From: Chloroflexota bacterium
Lineage (GTDB): Bacteria; Chloroflexota; Anaerolineae; Anaerolineales; Anaerolineaceae
Length of the DNA: 64,000 bases
Reading direction: 5' to 3'
NCBI GenBank assembly: GCA_016887485.1
Contig: CP069394.1
Location: forward strand, 1,860,001 to 1,924,000
The notes under the pieces are model-generated. The model searched no databases and was not told the origin of the DNA. It worked only from the letters and a program-made list of their open reading frames with translations. Numbering within the stretch: position 1 is the stretch's first letter; each line of letters opens with the position of its first letter. This document shows, one piece after another, positions 99 to 37,824 of the stretch. A program made the translations under genes and the position numbers.

Positions 99-1631
99 TC
101 AATCCTGGGGACTGCAGAGGGTTTTCACCAGTGCGTCGATATCGGCGAGGTCATAGGTCTGCCAAACGTCATAACTGCGGTCGTTCAGCAGCCCATAGTC
201 CGAGCCAAAGAGGTCGTTGAAGAGCAGGCGGAAGACATTCACCAGCGAGATACCGTCATAAAATCCAGCATCCACCGGGTCAGTCCCCTGCGTATAGATG
301 GCAAAGAGGTTCTCAAAGCGTTCCTCGATCGGCCGCCCCTTGACAATTGCGCCGTGATCGCCCATGACGATGATGATCGGCGGCTTATCGGATTTTGCGA
401 TGATCTCCTCCAAAATCGCTGGGAGGACCGAATCAATATATTCGACCGATTCGACGTATTCTTCCGGGGTGATCGACTTGGTGTCATTGAACGTACCATC
501 CGTATGGAACACAAAGGGGTCATGCGTGACCAATAAATGGGCATAGACGAATTTATTACCGGGCATCTCCACTTCCGGCAGGGTTGGCAGGGTATCCAGC
601 GCGTAGAGAGTATCGCGGTAGTGGCGCAGATAGAGGTTGTCGTCAAAAGGATAGGCCCACGCATCCGGGAAAGCGCCATCCATATCGATCAGAATCCGCA
701 GGATGGAGGTATCCACAATCAGCCGCTCAAACTCTGTGATGCTGCCGGTGAAGGTGCCCTCTCGGGCATAGCGGATGTCATCGTTGATGTTGAAGTGGGC
801 AAAGACGAAATTCTGAAAGGTGATCGTCTGGTAATCATGATCGTTAAGCGTCTTGAAGACCGTGCTCTCATTCAAAGGCGGCAGCACAAGATGATCGCTG
901 TCCTCATAGAGGTGATGGAGGTAATCCAGCCCAAACATGGATGCGGTGGAGAGATAGGTGATCGGGTAATTTGAAGTGGAACAATCCGCCACCCAAAATC
1001 CGAGGTCTTCCAGCTCGCTGACAAACTCGGAATTATCCAGCCCGTAAACCTCCTCGAGCACATCCGATCGGGTATACCCATCCACCAGGATCAGATAGAT
1101 ATCCGGCAGGTTGGCAATGCTCTCTGCGGAAAGGGCGGAGGCCAGTGGTGCGCTATCCTCATCCAGGCTTGCCTGGGTGTGATAGACCTTGTATTCATAG
1201 ATCCCAATCGATACGGCCAGATAGCCAATGATCGCTACAACGCCCAGCTCAACGGCCGAATTCAGGCCGCGGGCATCTTTGACCTTGAAGATGATCAGCC
1301 CGACAATCAGCAGGTAGAGGGCCAGAATAACAGGCAGCAACCAGCGATGATTCACCACATCGCCCAAACGCGCCGTTAATATCAGATAAAGGTTGCCATA
1401 AAAAAGCAGCAGGAAGGCTAAAATCCCCGAAAGCAACCCCGCCTTGATCGGATCCCGGAGGAATAGGAAATAGAGCAGATAAAAAACCGCCGTGACGCCC
1501 AGTGTGATGAGCAATGGCCGGTAGAGCGCTGGGATATTGACAAAATCAACGTTGTTTTGCGCGAGAGAAAGAATTGGGAATACGGCTAATAAGACTGGCG
1601 TGAGATATTCATACCACTTTGCTTTGTTCAC
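99..1631 (-). CDS. Membrane-anchored sulfatase/phosphoglycerol-transferase-fold protein
   Basis: 510 residues. About five hydrophobic segments lie in the first 150 residues, followed by a large domain predicted to be extracytoplasmic with alkaline-phosphatase/sulfatase-fold motifs: a metal-binding start at DIYLILVDGYTRSD (about residue 175), a candidate nucleophile region with Thr/Ser in NYPITYLSTASMFG, and a late IIIVMGDHGA motif supplying Asp/His metal ligands. This layout matches LTA-synthase-like and arylsulfatase-like envelope enzymes that move or remove phospho- or sulfo-groups on lipids or glycans. The substrate cannot be told. It is followed after 1 nt by a lipoprotein gene. Confidence 0.75.
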   Translation of the reverse strand: MNKAKWYEYLTPVLLAVFPILSLAQNNVDFVNIPALYRPLLITLGVTAVFYLLYFLFLRDPIKAGLLSGILAFLLLFYGNLYLILTARLGDVVNHRWLLPVILALYLLIVGLIIFKVKDARGLNSAVELGVVAIIGYLAVSIGIYEYKVYHTQASLDEDSAPLASALSAESIANLPDIYLILVDGYTRSDVLEEVYGLDNSEFVSELEDLGFWVADCSTSNYPITYLSTASMFGLDYLHHLYEDSDHLVLPPLNESTVFKTLNDHDYQTITFQNFVFAHFNINDDIRYAREGTFTGSITEFERLIVDTSILRILIDMDGAFPDAWAYPFDDNLYLRHYRDTLYALDTLPTLPEVEMPGNKFVYAHLLVTHDPFVFHTDGTFNDTKSITPEEYVESVEYIDSVLPAILEEIIAKSDKPPIIIVMGDHGAIVKGRPIEERFENLFAIYTQGTDPVDAGFYDGISLVNVFRLLFNDLFGSDYGLLNDRSYDVWQTYDLADIDALVKTLCSPQD

Positions 1632-1935
1632 CTGTGAGTCCTTGTGCGCTGGTGAGGTTTCGACTGAAAATTATTATACTGTCAGTCCTCAATCCCTTCA
1701 AATAGCCCTGTGGGATGGTTTAATCGCTTTTACGCGTTGTAAATCAACACCTAAAAGGGTATGCTGGGGTTAAATAATGCACCTGTCTCCCACTTGAAAC
1801 CCCGAACCTCTAAAATAAGCAAAAAAAATTTTGAGGCAATTTGATTTTTTTGTCAGATTGAATATTGCGAATCAAGTAGAAATGTTCGGCCAATTCTGGA
1901 GAGCTTTCATCCAGATTTGAGAGCCATATTGGTAA

Positions 1936-2050
1936 TTAAGGCTTCTCCTCGAGGAGAAGCTGTCTGCTTCGCAGACTGATGATGTGGTAAAAATTGAATA
2001 TTCACCTCATCCGGCACCTCGTGCCACCTTCTCCTCATGGGGAAGGCTTG
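1936..2050. repeat. Dispersed repeat, two copies in inverted orientation
   Basis: This intergenic stretch (1632-2109 has no other gene) holds two copies of one repeat family facing each other. Copy A (1936-1987, minus orientation) reads on its own strand CATCATCAGTCTGCGAAGCA, then CAGCTTCTCCTCGAGGAGAA and GCCTTAA. Copy B (2003-2049, plus) is a diverged version: CACCTCATCCGGCACC, then CACCTTCTCCTCATGG. A third member lies at 42277-42360. Each unit contains small internal hairpins (GTCTGC-GCAGAC; CTTCTCCTCGAGGAGAAG). No ORF or transposase is present, so this is a non-autonomous or REP-like element. Confidence 0.7.
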
Positions 2051-2109
2051 TCGGGAATATGAATTTAGTCCTTATTAATCAGACGAAATTATTACTAGAG
2101 GTGAATGAT

Positions 2110-2673
2110 ATGTCCCCAGAAATGAAGTTAACCACTCCCCAACAGGCTGAACTGTTTAATACATTACAGGCCCGCTTTGAGGCCAACCCCACCCGCCACG
2201 CGGGCATCACCTGGGCCGACGTGCAAACCCGGCTGGAAGCTCACCCGGAGAAACTATGGTCACTGAATGAGATGGAACGCACCGGAGGTGAACCGGACGT
2301 GGTAGACCTGGATGCTGACACCGGTGAGGTGATCTTCACCGACTGCGTGCCGGAAAGCCCCGAGGGCCGCAGAGCGCTCTGTTATGACCAGGCTGCGCTG
2401 GAAGCCCGCAAGAAGAACAAGCCTGCGGGCAGCGCTATGGGCATGGCGGATGAGATGGGGGTGACACTTCTGTCGGAAGCTGAATATCGCGCACTCGAAC
2501 AACTGGGGGCATTTGACCTCAAGACCTCAAGCTGGGTGTTGACCCCCGCAAAAGTCCGTAACCTGGGCGGCGCGCTGTTCTGTGACCGGCGCTTCGACAC
2601 CGTCTTCGTCTATCACAACGGCGCCGATTCCTATTACAGCGCTCGTGGGTTCAGGGCCTCGCTGCGGGTGTGA
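2110..2673 (+). CDS. DUF4256 family protein
   Basis: 187 residues from the ATG at 2110, chosen because AGAGGTGA precedes it at normal spacing; the reading frame runs further upstream only into repeat DNA. The protein matches DUF4256 along its length: LTTPQQAELFNTLQARFEAN near the start, the WSLNEMERTGGEPDVV block, and a C-terminal FCDRRFDTVFVYHNGADSYY block. Soluble, with no signal peptide. The family has no established function. It stands alone between a repeat and a convergent aldolase gene. Confidence 0.85.
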   Translation: MSPEMKLTTPQQAELFNTLQARFEANPTRHAGITWADVQTRLEAHPEKLWSLNEMERTGGEPDVVDLDADTGEVIFTDCVPESPEGRRALCYDQAALEARKKNKPAGSAMGMADEMGVTLLSEAEYRALEQLGAFDLKTSSWVLTPAKVRNLGGALFCDRRFDTVFVYHNGADSYYSARGFRASLRV

Positions 2674-2688
2674 GTAAATAGCAAATTC

Positions 2689-3387
2689 CTAATGGCTAGG
2701 TGCTTTGCTGTCAACTTTACCTTGGCCAGTTACCACTTTTTTCTGATCTCGACGGATCTTGGCAATGACCATCTCCCGGATAGCGAGCGGAACCTCACTC
2801 ACTTCATGGTCAGTACAAAGGGCCAGCAGATAAGCCAGCGAGCATTTCTCCAAAATCGCCACGTTATGAACCGCTCGCTCCATAGTAGACCCAAAGATCA
2901 AAGCCCCATGATTCTTCATGATGAAAGCGTTACTGACATTTTGCACATGATTGGCTATGGTATTCTTCAATTCGTCAGTTCCAGAAAAGGCATAAGGGAT
3001 GATGTCCACACTGGGGCCTAGGAAAAGGGCCTGCTCATCAAACAGGGTGGGGATTGGCGCATCAATTAACGCCAAGGCACTGGCATAGACCTGGTGGGTA
3101 TGGATAACGGCATTCACATCCGGCCGCACCTGGTAGATGGCACCATGCATCCCACTCTCAATGGAAGGCTTATGCTTTCCTGCAATTGGGTTGAGATCAT
3201 AATCAAGGACACAGACATCCCCTGATTTCATCTGCATGTAGTCAAAATTTGAGGGCGTAATGGCAAACCTATCCTGTCCCGGAATGCGCATTGAGACATT
3301 ACCCCCAGTCGCCATCAAAAATCCTTTTCGGACCAATCCTTGGGTGGTTTGAACAATTTGTTCCCGTACTATCTGGATGGAATCCAT
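2689..3387 (-). CDS. Class II aldolase/adducin family protein (fuculose-P aldolase type)
   Basis: 232 residues, full length for the family. Zinc-site residues are visible: His96 and His98 in VIHTHQ and His160 in MKNHG, with Glu77 (SIESGMH) in the position of the catalytic acid. The N-terminal TGGNVSMR loop is the usual phosphate-binding region. Members cleave or epimerise sugar phosphates (L-fuculose-1-P, L-rhamnulose-1-P, L-ribulose-5-P). The exact substrate is not decided by the sequence. It stands alone, convergent with the DUF4256 gene, with no sugar kinase beside it. Confidence 0.85.
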   Translation of the reverse strand: MDSIQIVREQIVQTTQGLVRKGFLMATGGNVSMRIPGQDRFAITPSNFDYMQMKSGDVCVLDYDLNPIAGKHKPSIESGMHGAIYQVRPDVNAVIHTHQVYASALALIDAPIPTLFDEQALFLGPSVDIIPYAFSGTDELKNTIANHVQNVSNAFIMKNHGALIFGSTMERAVHNVAILEKCSLAYLLALCTDHEVSEVPLAIREMVIAKIRRDQKKVVTGQGKVDSKAPSH

Positions 3388-3669
3388 TTTTCGCCTCCGA
3401 ATAAAAGTTTTTCATGAAAAATTATAGTTGGGCAGTTTATCCATGTCGAGGTTCTTCACAAAAATGGGGGAGTGCTAATGTTAATCAGATTTTATTGGAC
3501 ATCATTATTCTCTGCAACCAGGAATTACTCACCGCAATAATAATTAGTCGATATCGGCATTAAATTAAAACATATAATAAAAGTTGGCAAAAATCGTAGA
3601 CAACCAAACTCAAAAACAACCATTTACGTCTCGTTCTTCTAAATCAACTTATCAAAGGATATTGAATCC

Positions 3670-32154: not shown

Positions 32155-33219
32155 TCAGCCCAACACCGTGATCCGGTCCCCGGCAACCACCTCACCGATT
32201 TCCCAGGCCGGTTGGTTCATCTCGGCCGCCTGCTTCAAGAAGTCACTAATCTTCTCAGCGGGGACGCCCAATAACAGGCCGCCGTTGGTCTGCGGGTCAA
32301 ACAGCAGCATCTGGAACTCTTCCGGGATTGTGTCGACAAAATTCACATGATCGCCGAAGAATATCTGGTTGTCCGAAGCGCCTCCGGGGAAGCGCCATTG
32401 GCTGGCATGTTTCTTTGCGCAGGAGATGAAAGGCATCCGGTCAAATTGGATCCGCAATCCCAGTCCAGCGCCTTGTGCCATCTCCCAGGCATGACCGAGG
32501 AAGCCAAACCCAGTAATATCGGTGGCTGCCCGCAGGCCAAAGGCCAGCGCTAGTTTCGCTGCGTCCCGATTGAGCCGCTTCATCCATCCCACCACCTCAG
32601 CCACGTCTTCAGGCGGAGCTTTCTGCTGCTTGAGAGCCGTGGTGGTCACACCAAACCCGAGCGGCTTGGTAAGCACCAGCCGGTCGCCCACCAACAGACC
32701 ATCCTTGCGCAGGAGGGTCTTTTCTTCGCCAAAACCAAGCGCAACAAGACCGATCTTGGGCTCCTTATCCTGGATCGTATGGCCGCCAACAATCACCGTG
32801 CCGGACTCAGCCGTCTTTTCGGCCAGGCCGCGGATGATCTCCCGCGAAATCTCCAGCGGCAGGTCGGGCGGCAAAGCTGCCACCGTCAGCGCGGCAAATG
32901 GCGTCGCACCCATAGCATAGACATCCGAGAGGCTGTTGGCCGCGGCAATCGCGCCATAATCATAGGCATTATCCACGACGGGGGTGAAGAAATCCGTCGT
33001 CACGATGAGAGCACGCCCATCTTCCAGCCGCCAAACAGCCGCGTCATCAGGATCGTCCAGGCCGATCAATAAATCGGGGACAGTCATATTTCGATAGGTT
33101 TCCATAATTGGCCGCAGGACCTGCGCCAGCGCTTCAGCGCTTAACTTGGACGCTCAGCCAGCACAGCTGGAAAGGGTGGTCAGGCGAATCTCACGGCCTG
33201 AGGGGTTATGTTCTGTCAT
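32155..33219 (-). CDS. selD: Selenide, water dikinase (selenoprotein; in-frame UGA = Sec22)
   Basis: 354 residues if the TGA at 33154-33156 is read as selenocysteine. The uninterrupted frame begins only at 33105 and lacks the N-terminal catalytic loop. Upstream and in frame, from ATG 33219 (AGGTGACGAG before it), the sequence reads MTEHNPSGREIRLTTLSSCA, then G-Sec-ASKLSAEALAQVL: exactly the SelD loop, with UGA at the Cys/Sec position. Then come LDDPDDAAVW, TTDFFTPVVDNAYDYGAIAA, VGGHTIQD and the DITGFGFLGHA motif. It makes selenophosphate from selenide and ATP for Sec and selenouridine synthesis. Confidence 0.92.
33120..33156 (-). promoter_or_regulatory. Bacterial SECIS-like element after the selD UGA
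   Basis: Twelve nucleotides after the UGA (33154-33156) the mRNA can form AGCGC-UGAA-GCGCU (33128-33141), extendable by a CC/GG pair across a 6-nt bulge. The position matches the spacing of the E. coli fdhF SECIS that SelB recognises. Fold-based inference. Confidence 0.6.
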
Positions 33220-33238
33220 CTCGTCACCTATAATTTGT

Positions 33239-34278: not shown

Positions 34279-35445
34279 TTATTTTGCCAGGATATGCGTT
34301 GCCACCGTGGCGGCCATTCCACCAACGCTTTGAATCATCCCAACTCGGGCATCCTTCACCTGGTTGGCCCCTGCCTCACCTCTCAGCTGCAGGGTAGCTT
34401 CAACCGCCTGATAGACACCGGTCGCACCCAAGGTGTTTCCCCGAGCCTTAAGGCCGCCAAAGGTCGCCACAGGGATCTGTCCCTTCAAGCCGATCACTTC
34501 CGGCTTGGCCAGCATCCAGCCCTGTCCCTGGGAAGCGAAACCTGCTGTCTCCAAAGCAATCGCAGCGTGCAGTGAGGTTGCATCATGGTATTCAAAGAAA
34601 TCCAAATCCTTGGGCAGGATGCCAGCGTTTCGGCAAGCCCGTTCCACCGATATGCGCGCGGCATCCCAGACCAGAGGTGCATGCCGGTCATGGATGGATA
34701 GGGTATCAATCACCAGGCTGGAGCCGATCAGCCGTACCAGGGGTTTCTTCCAGCCCTTTGGCAAGGCGGATTTGCGAGCCAAAATGACGGCTGCCGCGCC
34801 ATCAGCATATGGCGCAACATCAAACAGGTTCAAAACCTCAGCAGCTTCCGCTGCGCGCAAATAAGCGCCTTCGCTCATCGCCTTTTGAAACATGGCATTG
34901 GGGTTGGTTGCGCCATTGGCATGCGCCACTTCAGGGAAGCCAGCAAAAGCCTTGTGATCCGCATCATATTCCTGTAAATAACGGTGGAACAACAGCCCGG
35001 CCAGGCTGAGCGGTGTCAACCCTTGCGCAGCTTCAAAATCAGCATCCAGCATTTGAGAAAGATAAGTCTCGGATTCCGGCCCGATCACGTCGGTCCACTT
35101 CTCAACACCGACCACCAAAGCCACATCCACTGCGCCGGAAAGCACAGCGAGGTAACCTGAGCGCAGCGCGGCCCCACCGGAAGCATCGGCAGCTTCCACA
35201 GTCACGCCCTCAATCCCTGCCAGACCGACATCATCCGTCAGCAAAGCCCCCAAATTGGCCTGACGGGAAGCCGTGGCCGCCAGCATATTACCGATATACA
35301 TCACCTGGGGGCGCAGTCCCTCGGCGTCCTTCAGCGCAGCCAGGATCGCCCCAGCCGCCATTTGTCGCAAGGAGGCATCCCAATGTTCGCCAACAGGAAT
35401 CTGCCCGACTCCCGCAATAACCACATCCGCCTGTTTCGTATCCAT
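34279..35445 (-). CDS. Thiolase-fold protein with catalytic residues replaced
   Basis: 388 residues from ATG 35445 (GTGAGGACGGGC upstream); a GTG start overlapping the HMG-CoA synthase stop is the alternative. It belongs to the archaeal/SCP2-type thiolase branch that pairs with HMG-CoA synthase. The nucleophile segment reads VEAADASGGAA, with Asp87 where the family has Cys, and the GHPxGATG motif reads GNTLGATG (Asn337 for His). HDAT is kept. The chemistry of acetoacetyl-CoA formation needs the Cys, so it is probably not an active thiolase; a partner subunit of HMG-CoA synthase is plausible. No DUF35 gene accompanies it. Confidence 0.85.
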   Translation of the reverse strand: MDTKQADVVIAGVGQIPVGEHWDASLRQMAAGAILAALKDAEGLRPQVMYIGNMLAATASRQANLGALLTDDVGLAGIEGVTVEAADASGGAALRSGYLAVLSGAVDVALVVGVEKWTDVIGPESETYLSQMLDADFEAAQGLTPLSLAGLLFHRYLQEYDADHKAFAGFPEVAHANGATNPNAMFQKAMSEGAYLRAAEAAEVLNLFDVAPYADGAAAVILARKSALPKGWKKPLVRLIGSSLVIDTLSIHDRHAPLVWDAARISVERACRNAGILPKDLDFFEYHDATSLHAAIALETAGFASQGQGWMLAKPEVIGLKGQIPVATFGGLKARGNTLGATGVYQAVEATLQLRGEAGANQVKDARVGMIQSVGGMAATVATHILAK

Positions 35446-35453
35446 GCCCGTCC

Positions 35454-36533
35454 TCACTTCATTGCGATCTTGCCGCGGAAGCGGACATAAGTGGCATAGT
35501 CAATTTCCGTTCGCCGGGCAATATAATCCTGAGTGCTTAGGGCAGCCTTCCGGCGTTCAGGCAATGCCTCCTGAGCCGTGAGCACAAAGGAATCCGAGCC
35601 AGCCCCGGACCCATAGGAAGTGATCAGGATCTTATCACCCGGTTCCGCCAGGTCTAAAACAGCCGTAAGACCGATCAGCGATGCTCCGGCATAGGTGTTC
35701 CCGATCACCGGGGAAAGCAGACCGGCGTTGATCTGTTCCGGGGTGAAGCCCAACTGTTTGGCTACCCGCTGGGGGAATTTCTTATTTGGTTGGTGGAAAA
35801 CAGCGAACCTAAAATCCGCCGGCTTCATTCCGAGTGCATCCATCAGGTCACTCGAGGCCGAGGCCACATGCTGGAAATATGCCGGTTCACCGGTAAAACG
35901 CTGCCCATGCTCGGGATAGATCTGGTGCGCCCGCCGCCAGAAATCCGGTGTATCGGTCACATAGGAATATTGAGCATCTATCGTCAACAGGGCATCTTCC
36001 GCCGGACCAACGATAAAGGCCGCCCCACCGGAAGCCGCGGTATATTCCAGAGCATCACCGGGTTTCCCCTGCGCGGTATCCATCCCAATCGCCAGGGCAT
36101 ATTCACCCATCTGTGACCCAACCAGGGCCATCGCCGCCACCAGAGCTTCCGTTCCGGCTTTACAGGCAAATTCCCAGTCACCGGCCTGAATGTGTACCGG
36201 GGCACCAATAGCCTCCGCCACGATGGTGCCGCTGGGCTTGACGGCATAGGGGTGCGACTCGGAACCCACCCAAACAGCCCGCAGCTGTGAGGCATCAATC
36301 CCGGAGCGTTTCAAGGCGTTTCGGGCAGCCTCAATCGACATAGTGATCACGTCCTCATCCAGCCCGGCCACAGCCTTCTCGATCACCGGACCGGGGGATT
36401 CCTCACCCTTCCAGATCCGCGAGATTTCCTTATTGGGCAGCCGGTAGCGGGGGACATAGGCCCCATAACCCACAATACCAACCGGACGCGCCGGTCGATT
36501 CACGATGCCTTCCTGATGTTCATGTTCGGTCAT
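35454..36533 (-). CDS. Hydroxymethylglutaryl-CoA synthase (archaeal type)
   Basis: 359 residues from ATG 36533, 7 bp past the HMG-CoA reductase stop; a longer frame runs back inside that gene and is rejected. Catalytic residues are in place: Glu92 in [14 protein letters not shown], Cys124 in [10 protein letters not shown], and His247 in FHQPNKKFP. It condenses acetyl-CoA with acetoacetyl-CoA to HMG-CoA in the mevalonate pathway. Its size and motifs match the archaeal-type enzyme rather than the longer eukaryotic/Firmicute form. Confidence 0.9.
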
Positions 36534-36540
36534 TTGCTCT

Positions 36541-37824
36541 TCAACTCCATTCTGCCATGATCTCCCGTGCCCGGTCGATCCGTACAGTTTTTTCTTCAAC
36601 AAGTCGTTCCGCCAGCGTCTCCACCTGGTCGCCTTCTGCCCCAGCCGCAATAGCCACCTGCCGGGCATGCAGCGCCATATGGCCGCGCTGGATCCCTTCA
36701 GTTGCCAGTGCCCGCAGGGCTGCAAGGTTCTGCGCCAGCCCAACGGAAACGATCACTTGAGCCAGATCCGCCGAGGTGGTCACGCCCATCAATTTGAGCG
36801 CGGCCTGTGCGCCGGGGTGAACGCGGGTGGCGCCGCCCACGATTCCGGCCGCCATCGGCATTTCAAGCGTCCCGGCCAGGTTACCATCCTCATCCTGATA
36901 CCAGGTAGAAAGGCTGGTATAGCGCCCGGATCGGGCAGCATAGGCATGGGCGCCGGCTTCTATGGCACGCCAGTCATTGCCGGTCGCCAGAATCACGGCA
37001 TCCACACCGTTCATAATACCCTTATTATGGGTGGCCGCGCGGTAAGGGTCCGCCGCGGCAAAAGCCCAGGCCTGGATGATACCATCCCGGACAGTCTCAC
37101 CCGAGAAATCGCCAAATGCCAGGTCAGCGGTGCGGATGGTCACTTCCACACGCGCCAGCCGCCGATCTGCCAAATTGGATAGGATTCGCAGCAGCACCCT
37201 TCCGCCGGTGATCGCTTCTATCCGGGGGGCAAGCCGCTCCACCGCGGTATTCACCGCATTGGCGCCCATCGCATCCCGCACGTCATAGATCAGGTGCGCC
37301 ACAAGAAATGCACCAATCGGGGAACCTTCGATCAATCGAAATTCCAGATCTCGCGGGCCTCCGCCCAGACGCTTGAGCACCGGATCAACCTCTGCGACCT
37401 GAGCTAGCAAGGCGGCTTTCTCTGCCAGGAGCTTTTCACGCGCTACTGCCGGGTCATCCAGGTCCAGAATCTGAATTTGACCGATCATTTCCGGCGCGGT
37501 GGTGGTGGCTGTGAAGCCGCCGCTGGGTTGCGCCAGTTTCGCCATGAAGGACGCCCCGGCCACGATGGACGGCTCTTCCACCACCATGGGAATCGAGACA
37601 GGCTGACCGTTAATCACAAAATGACGGGCAATCCCCACCGGGAGGGCATAGGTACCGACCACGTTTTCGATCATGTGCTCTGCCTGGTCAGCGGTCAGGC
37701 CCGCCGCGCCGCTGAGTGCAGCGATATCGGCATCAGATAAATCGGATTCGGTTTTGAGTTGCGCCAAACGTTCCTGACGGGTGAGGTTGTAGAATTTATT
37801 TTTGTTTGTCTTGCCGGATCCCAT
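36541..37824 (-). CDS. Class II hydroxymethylglutaryl-CoA reductase
   Basis: 427 residues, the size of the Pseudomonas mevalonii class II enzyme. [14 protein letters not shown] (about 53), catalytic Glu83 in [24 protein letters not shown], the Asn-Lys [11 protein letters not shown] motif and Asp in [15 protein letters not shown], then the His region GHMALHARQ. It reduces HMG-CoA to mevalonate (or the reverse) with NAD(P)H. First gene of a three-gene unit with HMG-CoA synthase and the thiolase-like gene. Confidence 0.93.

Follow-up and report, generated by a model that had tools for sequence, protein, structure and literature searches.

The window, i.e., the whole stretch of 64,000 nucleotides that was analysed, corresponds to C1:1860001-1924000, contig C1 of its own genome (G000), whose closest named relatives are Anaerolineaceae and Brevefilum MAGs. 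On its minus strand, three genes follow one another in the order HMG-CoA reductase, HMG-CoA synthase (HMGS), and a thiolase-like gene whose product we call THLA; the HMGS stop lies 8 bases ahead of the THLA start. The genes and codons, in positions of the window, are the following:

36541..37824, minus strand: HMG-CoA reductase, the gene before HMGS (TIGR00532, 405 bits, cut-off 260)
35454..36533, minus strand: archaeal-type HMGS (TIGR00748, 500 bits, cut-off 353)
34279..35445, minus strand: THLA, a thiolase-fold protein of 388 aa with Asp87 for Cys and Asn337 for the GHP His; ATG start, TAA stop
35185..35187, minus strand: THLA codon 87, GAT (Asp), site of the catalytic Cys
34585..34587, minus strand: THLA codon 287, CAT (His of HDAT, the HDxF motif), retained
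34435..34437, minus strand: THLA codon 337, AAC (Asn), site of the GHP His

The gene adjoining THLA encodes an HMGS of archaeal type, as shown by its TIGR00748 score over cut-off. Its best PDB chain is 6esq_I (E 3.1e-120), and it retains EFACKAGT and SESHPYAV, which we take to contain the Cys114 and Glu82 named in PMC6392133.

A Thiolase-Like Protein without Its Catalytic Residues

Two Pfam models exceed their cut-offs in THLA (PF22691 at 127.5 bits and PF00108 at 47.9 bits, i.e., Thiolase_N plus Thiolase_C_1), and the top NCBIfam model is PRK06064.1 (NF004720), with 340 bits, under its curated cut-off of 420. The catalytic thiolases of the archaeal/SCP2 branch require the Cys of VEAAC(A/S)SG, the GHP His, and the HDxF His, of which THLA possesses the last one (His287). 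The absence of the other two had been proposed from the sequence alone (VEAADASGG and GNTLGATG), and it is borne out by both the codons and the phmmer alignment, in which Asp87 stands opposite the Cys, and Asn337 opposite the GHP His, of 7YVY and 6ESQ chain A. A nucleophile at another position, which would have spoken against that proposal, is ruled out for the motif, whose alignment to 7YVY and 6ESQ contains no gap.

The AlphaFold2 model of THLA (115 sequences) has a pLDDT of 95.8 and a pTM of 0.95. Its top VIA-align matches are two thiolase chains of the M. thermolithotrophicus complex, 6ET9_C (Z 60.5) and 6ESQ_A (Z 60.2), with an rmsd of 1.5 Å and 33% identity, followed by 7YVY of P. furiosus (Z 58.2, 46% identity), while by Foldseek E-value and by phmmer the top match is 7YVY and not 6ESQ. 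By its Pfam matches over cut-off and its Z of 60.5 to 6ET9_C, THLA classes as a thiolase-fold protein.

Distribution of the Cysteine Loss in Chloroflexota

Among the 147 genomes of the source family (f1), 142 matched THLA or a paralog. The Cys is absent from all 81 distinct operon thiolases of this family, THLA included, and from all five of f2, a family of the same order (82 and 5 rows, respectively, before duplicate removal). As the relatives share the loss, sequencing error and chance are ruled out as its cause. It extends to 23 of 24 further distinct operon thiolases from named MAGs, L073 being the one that retains Cys. At the level of the class, an HMGS search of 298 genomes gave 292 matches, from which 40 regions were fetched; 39 of them hold a readable thiolase, L200 being cut by a contig end. 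For the phylum, 53 of 251 genomes matched at E 1e-60 and 20 regions were fetched, namely L203-L216, from 14 of the 24 non-Anaerolineae genomes that matched, and L217-L222, from six genomes of Anaerolineae. All 14 operon thiolases of the former group lack Cys; in the latter group, only that of L221 does. After deduplication, Cys is present in 24 of the 144 Anaerolineae operon thiolases and absent from 120 (11 of 34 when f1, f2, and the named-MAG set are set apart). Altogether, 135 of 164 distinct HMGS-operon thiolases in Chloroflexota are without Cys, in a sample weighted to the source family, so that this proportion is not a frequency.

The sequence-only reading had called for a search for the same substitutions in relatives. 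The Cys loss is indeed found throughout the family and is common to the genus, unlike the loss of the GHP His, which is patchy within the genus (His present in L015-L019, L021, and L024; absent from L020, L022, L023, L025, and THLA). The operon copy of genus g9, only about 40% identical, has Gly for Cys as well. Among the 120 Cys-less Anaerolineae copies, position 87 is occupied by Gly (66), Asp (25), Glu (24), Gln (2), or Asn, Ala, and Ser (one each), and never by Arg, Tyr, Phe, or Trp, though a single base change in a Cys codon would suffice for these. This choice of small, acidic, and amide residues may reflect restricted packing space where a helix begins rather than chemistry. In the same copies, His is found at position 287 in 50 cases and at position 337 in 12. 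In one locus of the survey (L055), a partial THLA-like stretch (2009-2434; 29% identity over residues 2-127) directly precedes the full THLA gene (2485-3642) and is perhaps a remnant of duplication.

The DUF35 Partner and the Other Thiolases of the Genome

The DUF35 protein that accompanies thiolase and HMGS in archaea had been thought to be missing here. This is not the case, since a lone DUF35 gene is located at C1:2391473-2391871, about 0.5 Mb from the THLA operon, and the DUF35 partner expected of an archaeal-type complex is thus encoded. Its best PDB chain is 6esq_E (E 1.1e-29), and it is 72-95% identical, over its full length, to family orthologs, many of which come after THLA. Among operons with enough flank, 68 of 117 with a Cys-less thiolase and 20 of 24 with a Cys-bearing one carry a DUF35 gene directly downstream of it, at most 1.5 kb away; in the source genus, DUF35 is located outside the operon, so that its expression together with THLA is not guaranteed. 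The DUF35 proteins of L194, L195, and L188 are 69-74% identical to the lone one, against 53-66% for most other loci of the class, and the operon thiolases of these three loci are Cys-less too. A tie between this similarity and the Cys-less state is doubtful because the DUF35 proteins of L219 and L220, whose thiolases bear Cys, reach 70-71%.

A second, intact thiolase, which the sequence-only reading had advised looking for, is present. THLB, a solo archaeal-type thiolase 45% identical to THLA, possesses Cys89, HDAF, and GHP (C1:723985-725154), and a PhaA-type thiolase with the CASG, NEAF, GHP, and CVG motifs lies about 36 kb from THLA (L013:7618-8829, i.e., C1:1931618-1932829). A further thiolase, of SCP2 type and accompanied by its own DUF35, is encoded on contig C2 of this genome. 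There, the region G000:C2:38000-54000 (L011) contains, with names given by eye, genes for a branched-chain-type ABC transporter, the SCP2-type thiolase, DUF35, and KAS III-like, CoA-transferase-like, and SDR proteins. This cluster, on a small contig, is a second thiolase/DUF35 module.

Repeated Losses and Selection

The Cys state undergoes at least seven changes on the HMGS tree of 77 rows and at least eight on that of 69 rows; on thiolase trees, the minimum is four with operon rows or five with all rows, the latter also when motif columns are removed. These counts carry no direction; we read the changes as losses because 7YVY and 6ESQ carry Cys. A single origin of the losses is rejected on the HMGS trees (p-AU of 1.2e-14 with 77 rows and 0.0025 with 69 rows) and, only weakly, on a thiolase tree of 49 rows built without the motif columns (p-AU 0.036). 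The strongly decayed copies group together on thiolase trees, which may be due to long-branch attraction or to a single ancient dead lineage followed by swaps. The family's solo THLB genes cluster in a clade apart, adjoining the operon copy L168, which retains Cys. In L177, L183, and L198, as well as in L016 of the genus, Cys is lost and both His are retained, a pattern suggesting that Cys may often have been lost first; L190, with Cys present and the GHP His absent, shows the opposite order.

The dN/dS ratios range from 0.043 to 0.104 for THLA (five pairs, dS < 1.4) and from 0.034 to 0.073 for HMGS (six pairs), the ratios of the many pairs with saturated dS or dS > 1.4, including all THLB pairs, being left out. 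By these values, THLA is under purifying selection; in most of the pairs compared, its rate of evolution exceeds that of HMGS. The 24 Cys-bearing copies share 128 conserved columns, of which 51 keep the same residue at ≥95% in 108 Cys-less copies and 32 relax, including 87, 287, 290, and 337; Asn149 is replaced by Ala in 95-98% of Cys-less copies. Seven columns shared by operon copies as opposed to solo THLB were considered as contact sites and set aside, kinship explaining them equally well.

Retention with HMGS and Co-Occurrence

In 59 of the 60 HMGS-first regions from the class and phylum searches, a thiolase gene lies at most 2.6 kb downstream, the exception being the truncated L200. Over all Anaerolineae loci, 144 of 147 distinct HMGS genes have a downstream thiolase and the other three are cut, a count that includes loci found via THLA itself. 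Four family genomes (G013, G035, G133, and G143), which are all those at least 90% complete and at most 5% contaminated without a strong HMGS match, show neither a THLA-level match nor a full DUF35 ortholog. G013 has a weak HMGS match, which the search counted among its 61 matches of 64; for G133, the THLA result comes from Thiolase_C, whose matches there are a PhaA-type thiolase, THLB, and one 420-aa frame only. THLB is retained in G035, G133, and G143.

In most family genomes, THLA occurs together with a THLB-level match, while G095, G093, and G105 have HMGS and THLA and no such match. Cys, HDAF, and GHP are kept in 31 of the 32 aligned solo THLB copies, a count in which one gene may appear twice, as L076 and L156. 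The copy that departs from this is the sole THLB-lineage one of G078 (L160, G078:C8:101500-105500; gene 1210-2382, minus strand), which reads IEAGDASGA (no Cys) and GNPIGAS (no GHP His) and sits on a long branch.

Of the tested genomes, 38 of 39 with a Cys-less operon copy and 19 of 23 whose copy bears Cys have a PhaA-type thiolase, called by Thiolase_C at E ≤1e-30. Among the Cys-less genomes, it is found in all 16 from the rest of the class, in all 14 from beyond Anaerolineae, and in eight of nine of the family, the exception being G105 (90% complete). In four Cys-bearing genomes (G256, G261, G286, and G430), the operon thiolase is the sole Thiolase_C match. The difference (Fisher p 0.059, kinship uncorrected) is suggestive only of a link between PhaA-type thiolases and Cys-less operon copies.

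Comparison with Known Systems

The thiolase/HMGS/DUF35 complex of M. thermolithotrophicus (PDB 6ESQ/6ET9) is reportedly the work of Vogeli 2018. The genes studied here belong to the same three families; this complex supplies the best PDB match for HMGS and for DUF35 and the highest VIA-align Z for the THLA model, and the order HMGS-thiolase-DUF35 is found in many relatives of the source genome. They differ from it in that the DUF35 gene is located elsewhere in the source genus and in that THLA, the thiolase subunit expected to bring the catalytic Cys, has lost this nucleophile together with the GHP His; therefore, the intermediate is not made inside the complex by known chemistry. DUF35 holds thiolase and HMGS together in the archaeal complex and the CoA site is shared (PMC12329534), CoA being bound in 6ESQ by residues of all three proteins (PMC6392133).

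PMC6392133 also describes PhlABC (PDB 5M3K), which is composed of HMGS-like, thiolase-like, and DUF35 subunits and in which one condensing-enzyme subunit is dead: Gly takes the place of Cys in the HMGS-like PhlA, and activity nevertheless requires the whole complex. PhlABC is, however, a mirror image of our system, with a dead HMGS-like subunit and a live thiolase, and it is not known to have a mevalonate role. The Ltp2-ChsH2(DUF35) and Sal-Shy(DUF35) aldolases, as presented in PMC12329534, provide another case of a thiolase fold bound to DUF35, with no thiolase reaction. THLA shares neither the catalytic Tyr/Tyr nor the Tyr/Cys of these enzymes, and their partner is a hydratase, not HMGS. At the HDxF site, where that paper, in our reading and not by an alignment, places the aldolase Tyr, THLA has His287, and Tyr occurs in three of 153 operon rows, duplicates included. 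Two other thiolase-like proteins, ST0096 of Sulfolobus tokodaii (4YZO) and TbSLP (5AB4-5AB7), are 28% and about 22% identical to THLA, respectively, and in ST0096 the position aligned with the Cys holds Ser. We know of no HMGS link for either of them.

Possible Roles of THLA

Taken together, the nucleophile loss, the conservation of the fold, the constant place of the gene, the purifying selection, the DUF35 gene, and the intact thiolases lead us to propose that THLA is probably a catalytically dead thiolase retained as a structural subunit of HMGS. THLA oligomers would be the core where DUF35 docks HMGS, and THLA would line the CoA site shared among the subunits, so that HMGS would still require it. 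If THLA is dead as a thiolase, acetoacetyl-CoA must come from another one; this would be the PhaA-type enzyme about 36 kb away and/or the solo THLB, and synthesis would no longer take place inside the complex. The logic of PhlABC, reversed, could explain such an arrangement, with a live HMGS and a dead thiolase yet needed for the complex and the CoA site. Past gene content and selection, we infer these scaffold-type steps. A scaffold or regulator of HMGS, or a new reaction, had been envisaged from the sequence alone. The scaffold fits best, given the constant place after HMGS, the purifying selection, the joint absence with HMGS and DUF35, and the VIA-align fold; the new reaction loses ground with the variation of the pocket residues among relatives.

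It is unlikely that THLA rather acts as a regulator, which would keep a CoA or acyl-CoA site and tune HMGS by feedback or acetyl-CoA sensing. Such a role would agree with the non-random set of residues at position 87 and with TbSLP, which is among the structural matches and was, by its entry titles, solved with acetoacetyl-CoA and malonyl-CoA; however, small and acidic residues at 87 may only suit a helix start, and the pocket varies between close relatives, unlike a conserved ligand site.

Ketosynthase and chain length factor form a heteromer, and THLA could similarly pair with its intact paralog THLB, which would catalyse the reaction. We consider this improbable, even though the two co-occur in most family genomes. 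Indeed, three genomes with THLA show no THLB-level match (divergent or missed copies being possible), the sole THLB-lineage copy of G078 lacks Cys itself, THLB persists where HMGS and THLA were not found (G035, G133, and G143), and, considering the family only, no THLB was found in an f1 operon.

There is also little likelihood that THLA catalyses another reaction, i.e., a retro-aldol cleavage like that of Ltp2 and Sal, or a decarboxylation, the reaction of Cys-to-Gln ketosynthases. The existence of DUF35-bound thiolase-fold aldolases devoid of thiolase chemistry (PMC12329534) and the Asp or Glu found at position 87 in many relatives go in this direction, but the would-be acting residues vary (seven different ones at 87, and His in a minority at 287 and 337), and the neighbours of THLA are HMGS and HMG-CoA reductase, with no hydratase beside it. 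That THLA would still be a thiolase using another nucleophile is very improbable: His287 is retained, but no conserved Cys or Ser replaces the Cys at the motif, and the GHP His is lost as well. Finally, a decaying gene without function, which the lost catalytic residues and the faster evolution relative to HMGS might evoke, is hardly credible in view of the low dN/dS, the lack of internal stops in any listed family match, and the presence of the gene in every readable HMGS-first region.

Returning to THLA as a structural subunit of HMGS, we more tentatively put forward a broader history, as one possibility. An archaeal channelling complex may have turned, several times independently in Chloroflexota, into an uncoupled HMGS whose thiolase survives only as a donor to the CoA site and a docking platform for HMGS, this change recurring once another thiolase can supply acetoacetyl-CoA. 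Pseudo-subunits of DUF35 complexes were already known, as were the fold and the operon. In the literature searched, we found no description of a Cys-less thiolase in an HMGS operon, nor of the widespread and repeated loss of the nucleophile there with the gene retained, which does not by itself establish their absence from print. The two possible roles of the thiolase in archaeal-type complexes, i.e., synthesis of acetoacetyl-CoA and formation of the shared CoA site, become separable via natural variants that seem to retain only one of them, and whether an archaeal-type HMGS works without its thiolase partner becomes testable. Moreover, "thiolase" genes in the mevalonate operons of Chloroflexota cannot be taken for the source of acetoacetyl-CoA, and pathway engineers may gain a natural uncoupled version of the complex.

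A Candidate Selenoprotein Gene in the Window

The window also encodes selD (selenide, water dikinase; 32155-33225, minus strand), which contains an in-frame TGA at 33154-33156, in LTTLSSCAG-U-ASKL, upstream of the listed ORF start. The Rfam scan of the window returned one tRNA only and, at the gathering threshold, no SECIS. SelD proteins carry Sec or Cys at the site of this TGA, and the selD product is likely a selenoprotein.
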